A stretch of 45,556 nucleotides of DNA from Candidatus Troglogloeales bacterium (lineage in GTDB: Bacteria; Nitrospirota; Nitrospiria; SBBL01): NCBI GenBank assembly GCA_005239745.1, contig SBBL01000099.1:1-45556 (forward strand), read 5' to 3'. Below, piece by piece: positions 4,922 through 45,549 of this stretch. A program made the translations under genes and the position numbers. Numbering within the stretch: the stretch's first letter is position 1; each line of letters begins with the position of its first letter. The notes below the pieces were generated by a model, which saw nothing but the letters and a program-made list of their open reading frames with translations, was not told the origin of the DNA and searched no databases.

Positions 4922-4938
4922 GGGTTTTTAGAGGTGTT
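4922..4938 (+). repeat. Solo terminus of the 178-bp repeat family
   Basis: GGTTTTTAGAGGTG matches the right terminal inverted repeat of the complete elements at 8782 and 11035, with no recognisable body beside it. It lies just upstream of the CDGSH gene. It is probably a decayed copy. Confidence 0.45.
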
Positions 4939-4962
4939 CTTTAGTATTCGAGAGGAGGATCT

Positions 4963-6173: not shown

Positions 6174-6250
6174 CCCTTCCGGGCTCCATGTCCACAGGCA
6201 ATAGCGGGTGTGCCATCGTTAACGCTTTATTTTGCGTTACGGAGAAAGGC

Positions 6251-7048
6251 GTGGCGTATCTGAAACAGGCGTTAACCATCGCGGCCTCCGATTCTGGCGG
6301 TGGGGCAGGCATTCAGGCCGATATTAAGGCCATGCAGGCCAGTGGCGTTTATGCCCTATCTGTGTTGGTCGCGATCACCGCCCAAAACACCAGAACCATT
6401 ACTAAGGTCTATCCTTTACCAAACGATATCATTGAGGCACAGATTGACGCTGTTTTTGATGATTTTGAGATCGGAGCCGTCAAGACCGGGTTGCTTCTCT
6501 CTGCCGAGATTGTAAGAGTGGTATCCGCTAAACTGCGGGAGTCGAAAATTAACCATTTAGTGGTAGACCCGGTGATGACTGCCAAGGCGGGGGGAGGATG
6601 CGAACTGCTCAAAACAGACGCCATCGAGAAGATGAAGCGTGACCTTTTCCCCTTAGCCCATTTGGTAACCCCAAACCTTCATGAGGCCGCACGGCTTACC
6701 GGTATGAACATTACAACTTTGGAAGATGTCAAGGAAGCGGCAAGGCATCTCCATCAGTTAGGGTGCGCGAACGTCCTAGTCAAAGGGGGCCATTTCCTGC
6801 AGCAACCCGCCCCTGATCTCCTGTACGACGGGGAGATATTTACCCTGTTTCAAGGGGAGTTTATTGACACCCCCCACACGCACGGGACCGGCTGCACCTA
6901 CGCCGCCGCAATTGCCGCCCATCTCGCTTTAGGCAAGGACCTCATTGCAGCGATCAGGGCCTCCAAGGACTATCTCACCGAGACCATCCGCCATGCCTTA
7001 ACGATAGGCCGAGGGCGAGGCCCTGTTCATCACTTCCCCAACGGGTAG
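6251..7048 (+). CDS. thiD: Hydroxymethylpyrimidine (phosphate) kinase ThiD
   Basis: Thiamine-pathway kinase that phosphorylates 4-amino-5-hydroxymethyl-2-methylpyrimidine and its monophosphate. The ribokinase-fold N-terminus KQALTIAASDSGGGAGIQAD is diagnostic. The substrate-pocket segment VVDPVMTAKAGG and the C-terminal anion-hole motif HGTGCTYAAA (about 213) are intact. I choose GTG 6251 because GGAG lies 6 nt before it and it gives the usual 265 residues. The longer frame from ATG 6188 adds a 21-residue tail that the family lacks. It sits between gpsA and a macro-domain gene; thiS and thiG are about 30 kb away in the window. Confidence 0.95.
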   Translation: MAYLKQALTIAASDSGGGAGIQADIKAMQASGVYALSVLVAITAQNTRTITKVYPLPNDIIEAQIDAVFDDFEIGAVKTGLLLSAEIVRVVSAKLRESKINHLVVDPVMTAKAGGGCELLKTDAIEKMKRDLFPLAHLVTPNLHEAARLTGMNITTLEDVKEAARHLHQLGCANVLVKGGHFLQQPAPDLLYDGEIFTLFQGEFIDTPHTHGTGCTYAAAIAAHLALGKDLIAAIRASKDYLTETIRHALTIGRGRGPVHHFPNG

Positions 7049-8614: not shown

Positions 8615-8781
8615 GGGGTCCTTTTTCACGGAGGAACACGCGTTATATAATACATATACTATGATACTATGCAAGCAAAATATCATCAGGCAAAATAGGG
8701 ATGAACAACCCGAAATATCCACTATTTCATCACAAGAACTTACAAAAAACTGGAGGTGGGCAAGGCAATGCGGCTACTTGA

Positions 8782-8958
8782 GGGCACCTCTAAAAACCGT
8801 AGCGAGCGGCCCAAGTGCAAGGCGCACGGAGCACAGGAACCGCAATGTACGCAGTGTACATGAGGATTCCGAGCACAGCGCAGCACCCCAAGAGCTTGCT
8901 CTTGGGGACCCCGCGCAACGCAGCAATTGGGTCACGCAGTAGGTTTTTAGAGGTGCCC
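8782..8958 (+). mobile_element. MITE-like element, complete copy A
   Basis: A 177-bp non-coding element bounded by perfect 17-bp terminal inverted repeats, GGGCACCTCTAAAAACC at the left and its reverse complement at the right. It is flanked by TTGA on both sides (8778-8781 and 8959-8962), a 4-bp target duplication. The interior carries a perfect 10-bp-arm hairpin CCCCAAGAGC-TT-GCTCTTGGGG (8886-8907). It has no transposase, so it must move in trans or be extinct. It matches the copy at 11035 in opposite orientation over its whole length. Confidence 0.85.
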
Positions 8959-9003
8959 TTGACAGAGATATTTACGCTCCCCTACCATACGGCGCCGGTG
9001 GAT

Positions 9004-11015: not shown

Positions 11016-11034
11016 AAGCTACCGAAAAATATCA

Positions 11035-11213
11035 GGACACCTCTAAAAACCTACTGCGTGACCCAATTGCTGCGTTGCGCGGGGTCCCCAAGAGCAAGCT
11101 CTTGGGGTGCTGCGCTGTGCTCGGAATCTTCATGTACACCACGTACATTGCGGTTCCTGTACGTAGTAGCCCTTGCACTTCAAGCCGCCTCATGACGGTT
11201 TTTAGAGGTGCCC
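11035..11213 (-). mobile_element. MITE-like element, complete copy B at the clpX stop codon
   Basis: A 179-bp element with termini GGACACCTCTAAAAACC and GGTTTTTAGAGGTGCCC, inverted relative to copy A and similar along its whole length, including the internal hairpin CCCCAAGAGC-AA-GCTCTTGGGG (11086-11107). ATCA flanks it on both sides (11031-11034 and 11214-11217). The right-hand duplicate contains TCA, the complement of the clpX stop TGA. The insertion thus landed on the last codon of clpX and the duplication left the stop intact. It fills nearly the whole mnmG-clpX convergent gap, so any former terminator has been split or replaced. Confidence 0.85.
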
Positions 11214-11214
11214 A

Positions 11215-12492
11215 TCAGGCGGATTTAACGTCTTTTCCCTGATGATAGATAAGAACAGGCTCGGCGGTACCGGAAATGAATGCCTCCGTCACAACACATT
11301 CCTTGATGTCTTCGATGGAGGGAAGGTTATACATCAACTCCAGCATGGCATTTTCAATAATCGCGCGTAATCCACGCGCCCCTGTTTTCTGAGACAGGGC
11401 CAGTTTGGCAATAGCCTCTATGGCACTGGGCATAAAGTTGAGCTTCACGTGTTCCAGGGAGAAAAGTTTCTCATACTGCTTCAAAAGCGCATTTCGCGGC
11501 TCTGTCAGTATCCGAATCAGGGCGGCTTCACTTAGATTGTTCAGCGTCGCAACCACCGGGAAACGACCGATAAACTCCGGTATTAAACCGTACTGAATCA
11601 AATCTTCCGCCTGCACCAGCGAAAGGATGTCTCCGGATCTTCGATGGACTTTTCTAACGTCGGCGCCAAAGCCAATGACCTTCTTGTTAATGCGTCGTTC
11701 GATGATCTTTTCAAGATCAATAAACGTTCCGCCACAAATGAAGAGGATGTCACTGGTATTGACCTGTATAAACTCCTGGTGCGGATGTTTCCGTCCACCT
11801 TGTGGAGGAACATTGGCAATGGTTCCTTCAACCAGTTTCAGCAGTGCCTGCTGGACCCCTTCACCAGAGACATCACGGGTGATAGACGGCGAATCACTCT
11901 TGCGCGCGATTTTATCAATTTCATCAATATAAACAACCCCTCGACACGCCTTCTCAACGTTGTAATCGGCCGCCTGTAATAGCTTGAGGATAATGTTTTC
12001 AACGTCCTCCCCCACATAGCCGGCCTCCGTAAGGGTCGTGGCATCGGCAATCGTGAAGGGCACATCTAAGATACGCGCCAACGTCTGCGCAAGCAGCGTC
12101 TTGCCGGTACCCGTTGGCCCAATCAGCAGAATATTTCCTTTCTGGAGTTCAATGCCGTCACCCGTGCGATGAGTGGCGGCACGCTTTTCGTTTTGGGCGT
12201 TTGAGGTAATTCGCTTGTAGTGGTTGTAAACGGAAACGGCGAGTACTTTTTTGGCCCGTTCCTGTTCGATCACGTACTGATCGAGGGTGGCCTTGATATC
12301 AACAGGTTTTGGGAGCGCGGGCATACGCTCCGGCTTGCCCCCTTCCCATTCCTCTGCAATGATGTCATTGCACAAGTCCACGCACTCATTGCAGATGTAA
12401 ACGGCCGGCCCCGCGATAAGTTTTTTGACCTCATCGCGATTTTTCCCGCAGAAAGAACACCGCAGGTACTCCACCTTCTCATGCTTTGGCAT
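11215..12492 (-). CDS. clpX: ATP-dependent Clp protease ATP-binding subunit ClpX
   Basis: AAA+ unfoldase that recognises substrates and feeds them to ClpP. The N-terminal C4 zinc domain uses Cys12, Cys15, Cys34 and Cys37. Walker A is GPTGTGKT (about 126-133), the pore loop is GYVG in [12 protein letters not shown], and Walker B is [11 protein letters not shown]. The segment [20 protein letters not shown] and the sensor region [11 protein letters not shown] are intact. Its 425 residues are the family norm. It is the last gene of tig-clpP-clpX. Its stop codon lies within the target duplication of a mobile repeat. The tig-clpP-clpX order agrees with many bacteria, but both gaps contain repeat sequence, which may weaken or alter co-transcription. 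Confidence 0.98.
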
Positions 12493-12514: not shown

Positions 12515-12647
12515 GGGTGCACCTCTAAAACCTACTGCGCGTCCAGAGGTGCCCTTAAGAATCTTCATATATTCAACGATATACTGTGTCTCCTGCGCCC
12601 CTCGCGCCTTGCATTCCGGCCGCTCGTGACGGCTTTTAGAGGCGCCC
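12515..12647. repeat. Degenerate MITE-like copy between clpX and clpP
   Basis: The left end GGGTGCACCTCTAAAACC and right end GGCTTTTAGAGGCGCCC are mutated versions of the 17-bp terminal repeats. The interior keeps the right-hand-half motifs (AAGAATCTTCATAT, GCCTTGCATTC, CGCTCGTGACGGC). A third terminus, AGAGGTGCCCTTA (12545-12557), lies inside, suggesting one copy inserted in or deleted into another. No clear target duplication remains. It occupies most of the 172-bp gap in the clp operon. Confidence 0.65.
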
Positions 12648-13381: not shown

Positions 13382-13398
13382 GGCTTTTAGAGGTGCCC
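13382..13398. repeat. Solo MITE terminus abutting the tig stop codon
   Basis: GGCTTTTAGAGGTGCCC, 16 of 17 bases of the right terminal repeat, ends at the base next to the tig stop (TTA, 13399-13401). No matching left end is found within the gap; family-2 repeat sequence lies where the body should be. As at clpX, the element boundary coincides with a stop codon. Confidence 0.6.
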
Positions 13399-28148: not shown

Positions 28149-28171
28149 GGTACAGCAGCTCGCACCGGGGC

Positions 28172-28234
28172 CCCCAAAACAATGTTTAAATGTTTTGGGG
28201 TGGGCAGCCGTTTGGCCGCGCAGTAGGTTTTTTT
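28172..28234. repeat. Palindrome and MITE remnant after rlmN
   Basis: CCCCAAAACA (28172-28181) and TGTTTTGGGG (28191-28200) are exact inverted arms with a 9-nt loop. GCGCAGTAGGTTTTTTT (28218-28234) matches the inner side of the right terminal repeat of the MITE-like family but has lost AGAGGTGCCC. The T-run could also serve as a terminator tail. Confidence 0.5.
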
Positions 28235-29966: not shown

Positions 29967-30034
29967 GGACACCTCTAAAAACCTGCCGCTCTCGGCCCAA
30001 GTGCAAGGGCTACTGCGCACAGGAACCGGAATAT
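29967..30034 (+). repeat. Left-half copy of the MITE-like element
   Basis: It begins GGACACCTCTAAAAACC, then CTCGGCCCAAGTGCAAGGGC and CACAGGAACCGGAAT, matching the left half of the complete elements. The right half is missing, and no target duplication is visible. It abuts the GMC remnant. Confidence 0.65.
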
Positions 30035-39018: not shown

Positions 39019-39083
39019 GGGAACCTCTAAAAACCTACTGCGCGTACAACCTACTGCGAGCTGCTGTGCTCTGAATCCCCGTG
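39019..39083 (+). repeat. Decayed MITE-like copy between the two minus-strand envelope genes
   Basis: GGGAACCTCTAAAAACCTAC starts like the 17-bp terminal repeat, with CTACTGCG twice and the CTGCTGTGCTCTGAATC interior of the family. No right end remains. The region continues to the stop of the giant gene at 39118 without a gene. Confidence 0.6.
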
Positions 39084-39117: not shown

Positions 39118-42100
39118 CTAGTTGATGGCCGTCAGGCGATCACTGAACAAATCTTCATCAAACTTGAGGCGGACCCTAAAATAAGTGCCCTTATCTGTGT
39201 AATCTTGTCCGGTTAAATCGTCGTCTGAAAAACCAAGTAAGTTATAGCCACCCGAAAGCCATACATTACTGTCCGCCAGATAGCCTACTTCCGCCCCCAA
39301 ACCGTACTGGTGGGTATCCCCCTCAAATAGGTCTCTGGCAATAAGACCTATATCCCACCGATCTTTCATGTCGTACGTTAGACGACCACTAATAAGATTT
39401 GCATTGTTCTTTGAATAGAGGTCATTGGACGTCTCTTTCACCCATTTGGTTGCATAACGACCCGAGACTTGTAGCCGATGTGATGGCTGGTAGTGAAGAT
39501 GCATAGACAGAATATGAACGCTGCGGCGAAGCGTCAACCCTGCAACAGTGCTGTCCGCTTCCCTCTTGAATTCATACTTGCCGAGCGCATTCCAGACATC
39601 CGTATCCGTGTCGCGATAGGCAAGTCCCGCCTGCAACCGCTCCCCCCGCTTACTCCCGGCATCTTTGCTATCCGCAACAAAAAAGGTATTTTTTGCCAGA
39701 AACGTCCAATCACGATCCAGTTTGCGCGCCAAACCCACGCTACCCAGGAAGTTGCTGCCTGCCCGGCCCCAGCGCCGCTCAACACGAGCGGTCCCTTTCC
39801 ACAGCGGCATCGGGGTGTATTCAAGACCAATGGCCACGGCCGTCCCGTCGGCCCCTCCCCCACCCGTTGGGCTGCTCGAATCAAGTGTTTTCGTCCGCTC
39901 GTAACTTGTATTCATCCGGAGCCCCTCTGCAAGATGCCACAGATTGCGCAGGCCAATGGCCGCGTCCGTCTCTCGGCCGGAAAATGCATCCCGCGCGCGA
40001 TACTCCGTAAAGAGGTGCCCGTCTCGCATATAATTAGTGTCCACCCCAAAGAGCGTCACATGCTGGGTTTGGCTGGGGGTTAAGACATACCGCCCACCTA
40101 TACTGGAGACAAACTCATGCCTCGCATAAACTCTCCCACGGCTTGCAAACTGATAGTCCCCACCTACGGCAATGGCCTTCAGGCATTCTGTTTGTGCCCC
40201 ACCCCTTGTAAAGCTTCCATGTGTAAAACAACGCGAGAAATGGTCGGTATCCTGTTCATACTCACCAAAAACGTTCAATTGGGGAAGCGTAGGGATTTGG
40301 GCCCCAACTTTTATGCGCAGGCTGGTATTGCTAAACTCACCCACGGAACTAACCGTACTTGCCGGCGTGGGTGTCTCTTTGGAATGGCGAACGCCCGTTT
40401 CAATGCGGACATTGTTGTCAAAATGTTTCTCCACGGAGGCGGATAGCCCGGTCCTTTCCCCACCGGTACGCACGTCCCTACTTTGCAAGCCTTCTACGCG
40501 TAGCGTGTTTCGTGGAGTCATCTTATAGGTCAACTGTAAGCCGGACTCCATCCTTCCCTGGGCAAGCCCGGAGGACGGATTGACAAAGTCGGCGTCGGTC
40601 CTGCCGGAATGGAGCCTCGCCTGCAGCCTCTCTCCCTGGTGCCTAAGCTCCGTGCGCACCCCGGAACCGGAACCCACGCTGGATTTGTGGCTAGACGCCC
40701 CTTCACCAATCAGGTAGGTCTTCTCCCCCAGCCGGAACGATATATTCCCACTCCGCAACTGGTAGTCGTCCTGCGGATTATTCTCATCCACCGAGGAGAA
40801 CCCCAGCTCTACCCGATCCGTCACTTTTAATTGCCCATCAAGGCCGGCCACCCAAAAATCTTTCCCCCCTTGATCGGCCTCATAGGTTACCCGGATAACG
40901 ACGGGGTTGAGATTTTCATCAACGCTTGGGATCGGACGACGGAATAGGAGGGAGCGACTAAACTCATCAAAGGTATAATCATTAAACCGGACCATGCGTT
41001 GTGTCTTCAGGGTAACACTGGGCTGGTTACGGTCATAGGTAACAATCTCCACCTGTTCGCTATTGGGTGCAGGGATGGCCGCTGGGTCACTTAAGAAGTA
41101 AGGGCCGGAGATCCCCTTGCCGGGGATAAGGTCTATCACGTGTCTAAGGCTGTCTCTGCTGGCAAAGGCGTTGAGGTTAAACTGCCCGTTCTCCCCATGC
41201 ACCCTTACTCCCGTTAAATTACGATTATACCGACCGAGGTTTTTGACTTCTCCACTCGATTGCGTTGTAAAGTCGCCGTACATCGCATAGGAGCGGTTTT
41301 TGTCTACCCGGATGTAGAACCGCTGCGTTGACTGGGCATCATACTCACGGATAGAGGAATCGCCGTAGACCGGGTAAAACTCATCCGGCTGAATATCCCT
41401 AAAGAGCCGTTCTCTCGTCTCTTTGTCAGAGTCATAGCCCATCGTCAGGAGCGCATTTCCCCTAATTTTTCCTTTCAGGAAGAGGGCGGCACGTCCACCC
41501 GCAACAGACCTGTCATCGTCGGATCCGGAGGTTAGATGCCTAAGCTCATCCTCAAACCCGTCTGCTTTGTGCGCCGGGACAAGGTCACGACTATCAAAAT
41601 TATTGAAGTTAACCGTCCCTTCAATAATGCCTACCGCCACCATCGGCCGCACATCAGGGATAAACGATACCCGTGCCTCCGACCGAATCGTTCCGGACAA
41701 TGCCCTCACCACTCCTTCACCAGGGACTTGCGGTGCCAGCAGTAAATACTCGGAACGCCCCCCCTCTATAAAGACTTGGACATTTGGCTCAACCGAGTCT
41801 ACATCTTCCACCTGTAAGCGACCCAGGCTTGCCTCAAGGGTAACGGGCGTTCGCACAGTGACGGGTACGCCATTTGCGTCCATTAAACGAACAATCACTT
41901 CAGCCGGCGCATGACCATCGGCCGGAACCGACTCCGGGGCTTCGATCACAATGCGACCCAACTGCCCCGGTGCGATCACTCGAATCGCCTGGCTACCAAC
42001 GATCTTCTCTCCATCACTCTGACTGACCTCAAGAAGATTTTCACCCGCCTTCAGGTCTACCCCGATATACTCCAAGACCGCAATGTGTTCCTGTTCCGAG

Positions 42101-45100
42101 GCAATACGCTTGCCAACGCGTGTGACGGGAATTTCGTCTCCATTGAGGGTTAACCGGAACGGAAATTCAGAACTCCCCTTTACCCGAACCTGTGTCTGAC
42201 TGACCGGCAGGATATCTTTATCTCGTAGGTTGATAAAACCGACCTCAGATGTCAGGCCGGCCATGATCTCCTCAAGGGACGGGGTGAATGTGGGGGCCTC
42301 CCGGATCGGTTGCTTGGGCAGAAGTGAGTTGCGATCCGTTAGAGTCTCATGTACAGGCTCCGGCACGACGGACTCGAAACGGCTCGACCGTGTCCCTTCA
42401 CCTAAAACACCACTTGCGGGCAATGACTTTGGATCGGCCGGGACCGGACGGTCTACCTCCGTTGGCATTTTCGCAGAAAGCCCACGATCCGTCTCTGCAA
42501 CAAAGACCTCTCCACCGTCACGACGTCGTTTGACTTCCTTCACAACCCCTTCACCGCACGACCCTTCGGCAAAATTGGCCTTGTTAATTTGTCCGTCCTT
42601 TAGATCAACAAACTGGCTACCCGCATCAAGCGCGTTCCGATGAGACAGATCAATCAGCTCTGACCCACGCGGCATGGAAGTATAGTCAAGTTTCAAGACA
42701 TGCGTTTTTGAACGTATGCCATAGAAGCTATATTTCCCCTCACTATCTGATATCGCCGATGTCCCGTCTTCCAAAAAGACCCTTACCCCGGGGATGCCAA
42801 GCTCGCTAGGTTCTTGACGACGGTTCCGGTTACAGTCCAGAAAGACCTTACCGACAATGTAGCCCTCGCTGCTAAAAACCCCTCCTTGTACTTTTACAAC
42901 TGCCTGTGCCCGATTCGACTCGGTCACCCCACTGAACGCCTGTGCTTTATTGGTGCCATCGCCTTGCAGCGCCCCCGGCCCCACACCTACCCGATAAGTC
43001 AGGGTGACCGTCTCGCCGTTGGCAATGGAACCCAGCGAGAACGAAAGCTTAGGCCCTGCACCACCCGTCGGGTCAGCAATCGCAACACCATTTCGACGGG
43101 CCGTCCCGGTCTGGTACGTAAACCCGGCCGGCAGGACGTCGTCCACATGCAGCAGCGTCAGTGGAGTCGCGACCCCCGTATCATTTTTTACAGCAACGGT
43201 GTAGTCAATCAAATCCGCGATCTCCGCCACGGTACGAGAGGCCTTTTTATCAATAAACAAACCGCTAGCCGGTATCGGATCGAGAGGTACATCCAGAAAA
43301 ACCGGCCCCGTCGCCTCGGTAACCGCAAACTCACCTCCGTATGACCCGGAAGGGTCTATCCGCCTACCTGCAGGAAGCTCCCCAATCGGTACGGTTGAGG
43401 GAAAGCGGTGGCCGTTGGGCGCAATAATAACGAGTTTATACCGGCTTGCCTCAACCAGCGGGAACTCGAATAGCCCGTCCACCCCGGTAACCACCGTACT
43501 GGGCGCCGGAACGATACTCCCGTCGGCAAGACTCTTCTTTACTATCGCCGGCTGACCCGCAAGCCCGCCATTGCCGGCACCTGTCACGTCAATCAGCGTA
43601 ACGGTTACCCCAGGAATCGGTGCGTTGGTCTTGCTGTCGAAAACGATACCGGCTGGATCAATGAGAACCTCCGCCTCAACGCCCGTCGTCTCACACCCCT
43701 GCAGCTTTGCAAGGATTTTATCGTTTTTCACGAGCTGCATCTTCTTGTCGCCTGGCTTGGGGACGGCAGAGTCTTCCGTCTCAACAAACGGTAGTATCCG
43801 GAAAAGCCCTGTGTTGGGGCCGGACTCGGTGGCCACAAACTCTTCCGTGTCACCGGTCAGCTTAGACGTTAGGATAATGACGCCATCCCTGATGGTCGTG
43901 TTCCCCGCATCTATCTGCGTTGGAGAGACATTGCACCCAAGGGCATCCGTCTGCAAGAAAAGCGGATTTCCAAGCCTTGTATGGGTAATAGGCACCTTAT
44001 AGTCGGGGGTATAGTACTTAAGTACCGGGTCGCCAATCTTAACAAGGGTATTAATGGCCGTATCCGTCACATCCTCACCGCTTGGCCCCTTGGTTGTACT
44101 GGTCGCCTTTAGTTCCATACTAAAAGGTCCCCCGCTACCTTTGAGGGGAAGGGTCACCTTGATATAGACGGTAAATGACTCCCCCGGCGCCAATAGTCCG
44201 GTATCCGGTTTGCCGTTTCCATCGGTATCAAATAGCTCTATCAGCTCGCCACCGCCACCGTCCCTAAAGAGGCGGAACGTTGTCCCTGGAGGAAAACTCT
44301 GCTTCCCTTGCTCGATGTCAAACGTGTTAGAAGTATTCCCCTCGTTCGTAAAGACATTATCAAAATGGATGGTTCTGCCAACCGTTGCAGACAAGATGGT
44401 GTCGCCCTTCGCCTTGCCATCAACAGGATCCAGACTAAATTCCCCCCCTACCCGCTTGAGCACCTGGAAATCGGCCGTATTGCTAAGAAATCCTCCGAGA
44501 CTATCATAGGCATACTCAGCCGTGTTCAAAAGGACTCTCGGACCAACACCCCCGTCCACGGTAACGCGGAAAGTGATAGTCCCCGTAGAGGATACACCGG
44601 ACGATGGGACAGAGAAAATCATGACTGTAAGGGTCTGGGTCCCCGCATTGAAGTCGTAGGAGAGGGTGTCCGGCGTATTCCCCTGCTCATCTCCTGCCGC
44701 ATCCGTTAGCACGGTGCCCCCGGAAAGACTCCACCGACCACTACCTGGGACGTAGTTCATCCCGGCCGGGATGCTATCAGTAATCTTAAAATCACGGGCC
44801 GGTCTTGCCCCGACATTCTTATAAGTCAGGGTATAGGTGTGTGGGCCAGATCCCGGTAGGCCGGAAGAGGATGAAACGGCCTTGGTCACATTGATAATGG
44901 CACCCTCCGTAACCTGTACCGTGTCCGTGTTTTTCACCCTCATAGAACGGTCAAAGGTCTCGGCCAATACCTCCACGATCCCCACGTCTCCGGCAACGGC
45001 AGTCGAAGGTACTGTGCCAGAGACAACAAAGTTAAACGTTGCACCGGATGCCAATCCGGTAACGGTGGTAATAGCGGCGGCCCCAGCATCGGCCACGCCA

Positions 45101-45549
45101 TCCCCGTTCACATCTGGGAAAATACCTAAGTTGGAAAAATTAAACTGATCGCCAGTCCCTTGTGCCAAGGAAAGAGAGATCGTATCCTCGCCATTTCCCG
45201 TGTTAATCAGGATGTGCGGGAAGGAGACAGACCCACCGGGTGCAACCGATTTGGTCTGGTTGGCCGTTAAGATAAGCGCTCTGACCTGAAGCACGGTCGT
45301 CTTAAATACATTAGAGCGCAGCTCGTGCCTTTGCCCGGCAGAGGTGTAGGTCATTGTAGAGATGTTTTGGATAGTTATGCCGGCAGGCGGCGCGGCAGCG
45401 TACAGCGGCCCCCCCAACGGACCAAACACAAGTACGCCGGCAAGCCCCAGGGCCGCCCATCGTTGGCCCCCCGGCCACAATCGGAGTCCCGACCTGCACC
45501 CCCGACTGCAGTCGGCTCCCCGACTTTTTCGAAGAAACCCCCTACCCAT
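39118..45549 (-). CDS. Giant DUF11/SdrD-like surface protein with C-terminal beta-barrel
   Basis: 2143 residues. An N-terminal hydrophobic segment (LALAGVLVF-like, here ALGLAGVLVFGPLGGPLYAAA) acts as signal sequence. DUF11/conserved-repeat units start near 218 (VTKAVSSSSGLPGSG) and 765 (FIDKKASRTVAEIADL). A SdrD B-like Ca-binding unit starts near 894 (GYIVGKVFLDCNRNRRQEPSELG, abbreviated). A Big-1-like unit lies near 1196 (GRIVIEAPESVPADG). From about 1290 to the end there is an amphipathic outer-membrane barrel-like region with alternating strands (YGDSSIREYDAQSTQRFYI). No terminal Phe is seen. It resembles large secreted or adhesin-like envelope proteins. The start ATG 45549 lies 8 bases from the window edge; an upstream start is not excluded. 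Confidence 0.8.
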   Translation of the reverse strand: MGRGFLRKSRGADCSRGCRSGLRLWPGGQRWAALGLAGVLVFGPLGGPLYAAAPPAGITIQNISTMTYTSAGQRHELRSNVFKTTVLQVRALILTANQTKSVAPGGSVSFPHILINTGNGEDTISLSLAQGTGDQFNFSNLGIFPDVNGDGVADAGAAAITTVTGLASGATFNFVVSGTVPSTAVAGDVGIVEVLAETFDRSMRVKNTDTVQVTEGAIINVTKAVSSSSGLPGSGPHTYTLTYKNVGARPARDFKITDSIPAGMNYVPGSGRWSLSGGTVLTDAAGDEQGNTPDTLSYDFNAGTQTLTVMIFSVPSSGVSSTGTITFRVTVDGGVGPRVLLNTAEYAYDSLGGFLSNTADFQVLKRVGGEFSLDPVDGKAKGDTILSATVGRTIHFDNVFTNEGNTSNTFDIEQGKQSFPPGTTFRLFRDGGGGELIELFDTDGNGKPDTGLLAPGESFTVYIKVTLPLKGSGGPFSMELKATSTTKGPSGEDVTDTAINTLVKIGDPVLKYYTPDYKVPITHTRLGNPLFLQTDALGCNVSPTQIDAGNTTIRDGVIILTSKLTGDTEEFVATESGPNTGLFRILPFVETEDSAVPKPGDKKMQLVKNDKILAKLQGCETTGVEAEVLIDPAGIVFDSKTNAPIPGVTVTLIDVTGAGNGGLAGQPAIVKKSLADGSIVPAPSTVVTGVDGLFEFPLVEASRYKLVIIAPNGHRFPSTVPIGELPAGRRIDPSGSYGGEFAVTEATGPVFLDVPLDPIPASGLFIDKKASRTVAEIADLIDYTVAVKNDTGVATPLTLLHVDDVLPAGFTYQTGTARRNGVAIADPTGGAGPKLSFSLGSIANGETVTLTYRVGVGPGALQGDGTNKAQAFSGVTESNRAQAVVKVQGGVFSSEGYIVGKVFLDCNRNRRQEPSELGIPGVRVFLEDGTSAISDSEGKYSFYGIRSKTHVLKLDYTSMPRGSELIDLSHRNALDAGSQFVDLKDGQINKANFAEGSCGEGVVKEVKRRRDGGEVFVAETDRGLSAKMPTEVDRPVPADPKSLPASGVLGEGTRSSRFESVVPEPVHETLTDRNSLLPKQPIREAPTFTPSLEEIMAGLTSEVGFINLRDKDILPVSQTQVRVKGSSEFPFRLTLNGDEIPVTRVGKRIASEQEHIAVLEYIGVDLKAGENLLEVSQSDGEKIVGSQAIRVIAPGQLGRIVIEAPESVPADGHAPAEVIVRLMDANGVPVTVRTPVTLEASLGRLQVEDVDSVEPNVQVFIEGGRSEYLLLAPQVPGEGVVRALSGTIRSEARVSFIPDVRPMVAVGIIEGTVNFNNFDSRDLVPAHKADGFEDELRHLTSGSDDDRSVAGGRAALFLKGKIRGNALLTMGYDSDKETRERLFRDIQPDEFYPVYGDSSIREYDAQSTQRFYIRVDKNRSYAMYGDFTTQSSGEVKNLGRYNRNLTGVRVHGENGQFNLNAFASRDSLRHVIDLIPGKGISGPYFLSDPAAIPAPNSEQVEIVTYDRNQPSVTLKTQRMVRFNDYTFDEFSRSLLFRRPIPSVDENLNPVVIRVTYEADQGGKDFWVAGLDGQLKVTDRVELGFSSVDENNPQDDYQLRSGNISFRLGEKTYLIGEGASSHKSSVGSGSGVRTELRHQGERLQARLHSGRTDADFVNPSSGLAQGRMESGLQLTYKMTPRNTLRVEGLQSRDVRTGGERTGLSASVEKHFDNNVRIETGVRHSKETPTPASTVSSVGEFSNTSLRIKVGAQIPTLPQLNVFGEYEQDTDHFSRCFTHGSFTRGGAQTECLKAIAVGGDYQFASRGRVYARHEFVSSIGGRYVLTPSQTQHVTLFGVDTNYMRDGHLFTEYRARDAFSGRETDAAIGLRNLWHLAEGLRMNTSYERTKTLDSSSPTGGGGADGTAVAIGLEYTPMPLWKGTARVERRWGRAGSNFLGSVGLARKLDRDWTFLAKNTFFVADSKDAGSKRGERLQAGLAYRDTDTDVWNALGKYEFKREADSTVAGLTLRRSVHILSMHLHYQPSHRLQVSGRYATKWVKETSNDLYSKNNANLISGRLTYDMKDRWDIGLIARDLFEGDTHQYGLGAEVGYLADSNVWLSGGYNLLGFSDDDLTGQDYTDKGTYFRVRLKFDEDLFSDRLTAIN

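Follow-up and report, generated by a model that had tools for sequence, protein, structure and literature searches.

MITEs are usually seen as decayed copies of a single IS that die out with it, and IS5-group elements are expected to duplicate a 4-bp target, YTAR. The enterobacterial ERIC/IRU and YPAL repeats resemble the element described here: they are short, lie between genes and form imperfect palindromes that include a long hairpin, but they are flanked by TA rather than 4-bp duplications (PMC2759123). A minisatellite MITE of P. gingivalis resembles it in carrying extra internal repeat modules within its body (PMC4596501), but belongs to another organism; both likenesses are of descriptions, not of sequences. 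The best non-tRNA Rfam match of the region is sX9 (RF02228), by description an sRNA of Xanthomonas, which ranks with the most prevalent of the annotated bacterial sRNAs (PMC9029176).

The window is the whole stretch of DNA analysed, 45,556 nucleotides that form contig C60 of a draft genome (1.63 Mb, 145 contigs, 94% complete), whose organism we take to be a member of the Nitrospirota, order Troglogloeales. The initial annotation had placed here a complete MITE-like element with perfect 17-bp inverted ends and TTGA on both flanks, and we read each of these features directly from the letters (Table 1, copy 1); the ends are GGGCACCTCTAAAAACC and its exact inverted counterpart. A second complete copy that it had reported, opposite in orientation and flanked by ATCA, is present with one mismatch in its end at 11035 (GGACACC). 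Insertion of copy 2 did not disturb the end of the clpX reading frame, since its target duplication includes the stop codon of that gene. The 177 bp previously called the body are correct as a length but comprise the whole element, ends included. Likewise, copy 1 is complete, but 177 bp is not the base form, which is 142 bp, and the 10-bp hairpin noted earlier (palindrome CCCCAAGAGC-TT-GCTCTTGGGG) lies in a 35-bp module carried by a minority of copies. Allowing up to three mismatches, we found 11 termini in the window where shuffles predict 0.16, so the repeat is not a product of chance.

Table 1. Positions in the window of the MITE copies, their parts and their remnants.
Feature	Position	Strand	Remark
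Left target-site duplication TTGA, copy 1	8778..8781	.	Read directly
MITE copy 1, complete, 177 bp	8782..8958	+	
Left terminal inverted repeat, copy 1	8782..8798	+	GGGCACCTCTAAAAACC
Left arm against Rfam RF02228 (sX9)	8787..8861	-	37.4 bits (gathering 44), E 1.5e-4
Hairpin module A, 35 nt	8880..8914	+	Missing from 142-bp base form
Right terminal inverted repeat, copy 1	8942..8958	-	
Right target-site duplication TTGA, copy 1	8959..8962	.	
Left target-site duplication ATCA, copy 2	11031..11034	.	
MITE copy 2, complete, 179 bp, inverted	11035..11213	-	With module A
Right target-site duplication ATCA, copy 2	11214..11217	.	Includes clpX stop codon (TGA, minus strand, 11215-11217)
MITE copy 3, degenerate full-length, 131 bp	12517..12647	-	Between clpX and next ORF
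Decayed-copy terminus	13382..13398	-	
Decayed-copy terminus	4923..4939	-	
Module B within MITE right-arm remnant	28171..28205	+	
Left terminus and left-arm remnant	29967..29983	+	
Right-arm terminus (inverted) and short remnant	39019..39035	+	

A genome-wide scan that allowed two mismatches at most matched the terminus 210 times (reversed control, 0), and right-end copies numbered about 96. Stretches taken around termini yielded 54 complete copies with both ends. Exact 4-bp flank duplications were found in 37 of these and duplications of at least 5 bp in none, while random re-pairing of flanks gave a mean of 2.4 and a maximum of 8 exact 4-bp matches. The 37 duplications comprise 23 distinct sequences, which have the length of IS5-group duplications and are AT-rich, although not strictly YTAR. 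Complete copies are 106–220 bp long, with neither a transposase ORF inside nor space for one. Gene context was judged from ORFs rather than annotation: an ORF of at least 150 codons spans 2 of the 54 copies, compared to 50% of positions drawn at random from those stretches. Several assembly contigs terminate inside copies, consistent with a high-copy repeat. The following marks of a MITE are present: short length without a transposase ORF, inverted ends, fixed-length duplications of varied sequence, many dispersed copies and, in the relatives G051 and G048, an autonomous partner with matching ends. The MITE-like nature and movement in trans with a 4-bp duplication, as suggested from the first two copies, are supported across the genome. 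The findings named at that time as speaking against it (copies lacking inverted ends or duplications, or flanks shared through one larger segmental duplication) did not appear in this census.

The initial annotation saw no parent transposase in the window and left its family open. We likewise find none there, and assign the family to IS5 from G051, a relative of the same class. In G051, a 1300-bp element (L156 1501–2800), which starts with the exact terminus, finishes with GGTTATTAGAGGTGCCC and has TGGA on either flank, encodes an intact 355-aa transposase with the Pfam domains DUF772 and DDE_Tnp_1, which scores 256 bits against the NCBIfam IS5 model NF033581 (cut-off 140). IS5 relatives on plasmids, annotated IS1168/IS1169, are 49–50% identical. 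Related full elements occur in G048, where the duplication is TATA, and in G051, and G001 (Candidatus Troglogloeales MAG Bin_24_1, of the same order) retains transposase fragments only, one of them beside a degenerate terminus. The window's own genome, as assembled, yielded no parent-type transposase, an absence that is not proof because the assembly, 94% complete, is interrupted at these repeats. The sole DDE_Tnp_1 gene found there, in C63, was rejected as the parent, having no matching ends and looking like another IS family. Of note, an IMG/VR contig listed as viral holds the same end pair about 1.3 kb apart (L279:6626-7921) and is likely another full IS of the parent type.

Like the MITE, the G051 IS, of the NF033581 type, has the same 17-bp ends and a 4-bp duplication; unlike it, the MITE in the window lacks a transposase, and the two have no sequence in common beyond the ends. 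The MITE body is not a leftover of the parent IS. We conclude that the feature is very probably an IS5-type MITE (probability about 0.93). Because it encodes no protein and has IS5-family ends and 4-bp duplications, it must have been mobilised by a transposase from another source. We propose that an IS5-type transposase like that of G051 would bind the 17-bp ends and excise or copy the element, which would then be joined to staggered, AT-rich 4-bp targets, mostly intergenic.

Most complete copies are 141–145 bp, around the 142-bp base form, and larger forms with modules fall at 177–179, 184–187 and 206–220 bp. Module A (35 nt, ...CCCCAAGAGCTTGCTCTTGGGG...; 18 genome matches) is an added hairpin at either of two positions, and module B (~40 nt; 31 matches) one at a third position. 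In every context read, module B lies in a MITE or MITE remnant; the same holds for module A, bar one tandem pair of module-A-like hairpins without a recognisable MITE in C133 (L153, genome position about 9770), apparently at the start of an uppS-like gene. One MITE in C91:400-6900 (L124, about 6250–6330) carries several tandem module-A hairpins, as if the module were able to multiply inside the element. Some copies (C13, C81) have a quite different apical hairpin.

The element is predicted to fold at −80 to −90 kcal/mol, 8–9 standard deviations below shuffles (base class, −80 kcal/mol, z −9.4). Across 34 base-class copies, a 46-pair structure has standard pairs in 95% of cells, with 94 cells changed on both sides; none of 500 shuffles reached this count and slid controls gave at most 7. 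Since kinship among copies inflates such counts, we take the covariation as supporting the fold without proving it. At one non-pairing position, 20 copies have A.G and 11 have G.A, an alternation that simple arm-by-arm correction would not produce; a few subfamilies could explain it. The fold may be kept as an RNA function, as a DNA cruciform or through arm-to-arm correction.

Kin of the ~110-nt body were found in Gamma- and Betaproteobacteria (Comamonas, Rhodanobacter, Marinobacterium) and in two MAGs. These cross-phylum bodies are 109–110 nt long with invariant edge motifs. In the 20 bodies compared, GT..CGAGC at one edge, GCG.AG at the other and the inner segments around TGAGGAT..CGAGCACCGC are near-invariant and the stems covary, while the ends are not conserved. 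The ends scored far above shuffled flanks at the 15 of 20 loci that were parsed correctly; at the other five the edge of the body had been misplaced, and these are left out of the comparison. Related copies have 4-bp duplications in Marinobacterium (TCTA, TCCA) and Rhodanobacter (TTAC). In a single MAG, G061, bodies sit within at least seven different inverted-end types (among the ends are AGAACCTGTCTTCAAAGC, TAGAACCTATCTCAAAAC, GGAACCTCTGATTAACC, GGAAGCTGTTTTCAAATC, GTAGCCGTTTCAAAAGC, GAGCCCGTGAATT, GGGCACCTCGAAAAACC and the window's own GGGCACCTCTAAAAACC), and mean identity is 79% for bodies and 44% for ends, a few mis-parsed bodies included. A search of G061 for the G051-type transposase and for PF01609 gave no match, that is, no donor of the alternative ends. 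One G061 copy (C172, L309) combines the window's exact ends with a long extra segment, with hairpins of its own, in the body after GAGGAT.

These comparisons show the body as a predicted folded, covarying core of ~110 nt, related to sX9, that occurs in other bacteria within different inverted ends. Our tentative preference, at slightly under even odds, is that this core is an independent, long-lived parasite that crosses phyla by swapping its ends to suit different IS5-like transposases, and that sX9 is at least partly an arm of this transposon. The folded core would be the persisting unit and would acquire new ends matching whichever IS5-like transposase is resident, and the additional hairpins, modules A and B among them, would be accretions tolerated within the fold. 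We infer both that the core gains by exchanging its ends and how the exchange occurs. One body with many ends, even in a single genome, suggests a route by which MITE parasites may outlive their transposases and cross phyla.

The same observations could instead describe a plain MITE. In that case the fold would be a by-product of the near-palindrome, maintained through template switching from one arm to the other, and the bodies in other phyla would stem from horizontal spread during which the ends drifted gradually. The arms are indeed long imperfect palindromes, and the G061 ends, which resemble one another, fall into a graded series. Correction between arms should, however, erase mismatches, yet conserved unpaired segments are kept across phyla and the A.G/G.A position alternates among the 34 copies; moreover, the divergence of body and ends is uncoupled within the G061 genome. 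On balance, we regard it as possible but doubtful.

Relation to sX9 raises a further alternative, in which the body is a functional sX9-like regulatory small RNA gene, mobile by chance, whose copies are kept for regulation. The left arm of copy 1 aligns over all 76 positions of the sX9 model, which amounts to about half of the body. No copy in the window or its genome reaches the gathering score (Table 1), three G061 copies do, and Comamonas and Yersinia matches score 40.9 and 40.0 bits. Both the standing of sX9 as a widely annotated sRNA and the covariation of the structure favour a gene of this kind. Against it are the roughly 100 copies, many of them truncated, the hairpin insertions at several places, and the lack of promoter-like sites inside the two copies examined (copies 1 and 2), and we consider it unlikely. 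A role as an intrinsic terminator was not supported either, with 0 of 5 terminator-like sites lying within these two copies. Two Xanthomonas plasmids carry incomplete sX9 copies that have no paired ends, and these speak neither for nor against an origin of sX9 itself in a MITE. The papers we found treat sX9 as an sRNA and not as a piece of a transposon; our search covered the few open-access papers naming it, and we claim no priority for the connection. A text search of papers for the terminus sequence gave no match. If the preferred reading of a parasitic core holds, some annotated sX9 counts may be transposon arms, which is a question for annotation practice.

REP/BIME-type repeats, which a tyrosine (Y1) transposase mobilises, are likewise short, palindromic, intergenic and high in copy number. 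Y1 single-strand transposition is characterised neither by long inverted ends nor by exact 4-bp duplications, and the element has both, together with a matching IS that encodes a DDE transposase; the defining features of REP/BIME repeats, a Y1 transposase partner and no target duplication, are absent, and we think this origin very improbable. A larger segmental duplication carrying the flanks along with the element has next to no chance of being correct, given 23 different duplications among 37 copies, flanks that differ between copies and no observation in its support.

In E. coli, a related core, linked through a Yersinia intermediate, was found in 5395 of 5426 genomes at about 5 copies per genome, the best matches having no annotated feature. 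The presence of a related core in nearly all E. coli genomes makes the question whether annotated sX9 counts include transposon arms testable in a laboratory organism. One such core in E. coli S10 is an unannotated 138-bp stretch between qseG and qseE (L312:1477-1614) with outer inverted repeats CCTATCCCA/TGGGATAGG. RSA, an E. coli repeat of ~152 bp, is a possible match for these relatives. Their identification as BoxC repeats was dropped, as about 5 copies per genome compares poorly with the 22–32 of BoxC (PMC2267715).

Two further observations concern the surroundings of the element in the window. A promoter-like site, TTGACA-18-TACCAT (8959–8988, by consensus match only), starts within the TTGA duplication on the right of copy 1 and stops roughly 15 bases short of tRNA-Gln (9004); copy 1 seems to have inserted directly against this putative tRNA-Gln promoter. 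At 39118–45549, a 2143-aa ORF probably encodes a large surface protein, its domains being DUF11, SdrD_B and invasin-like.
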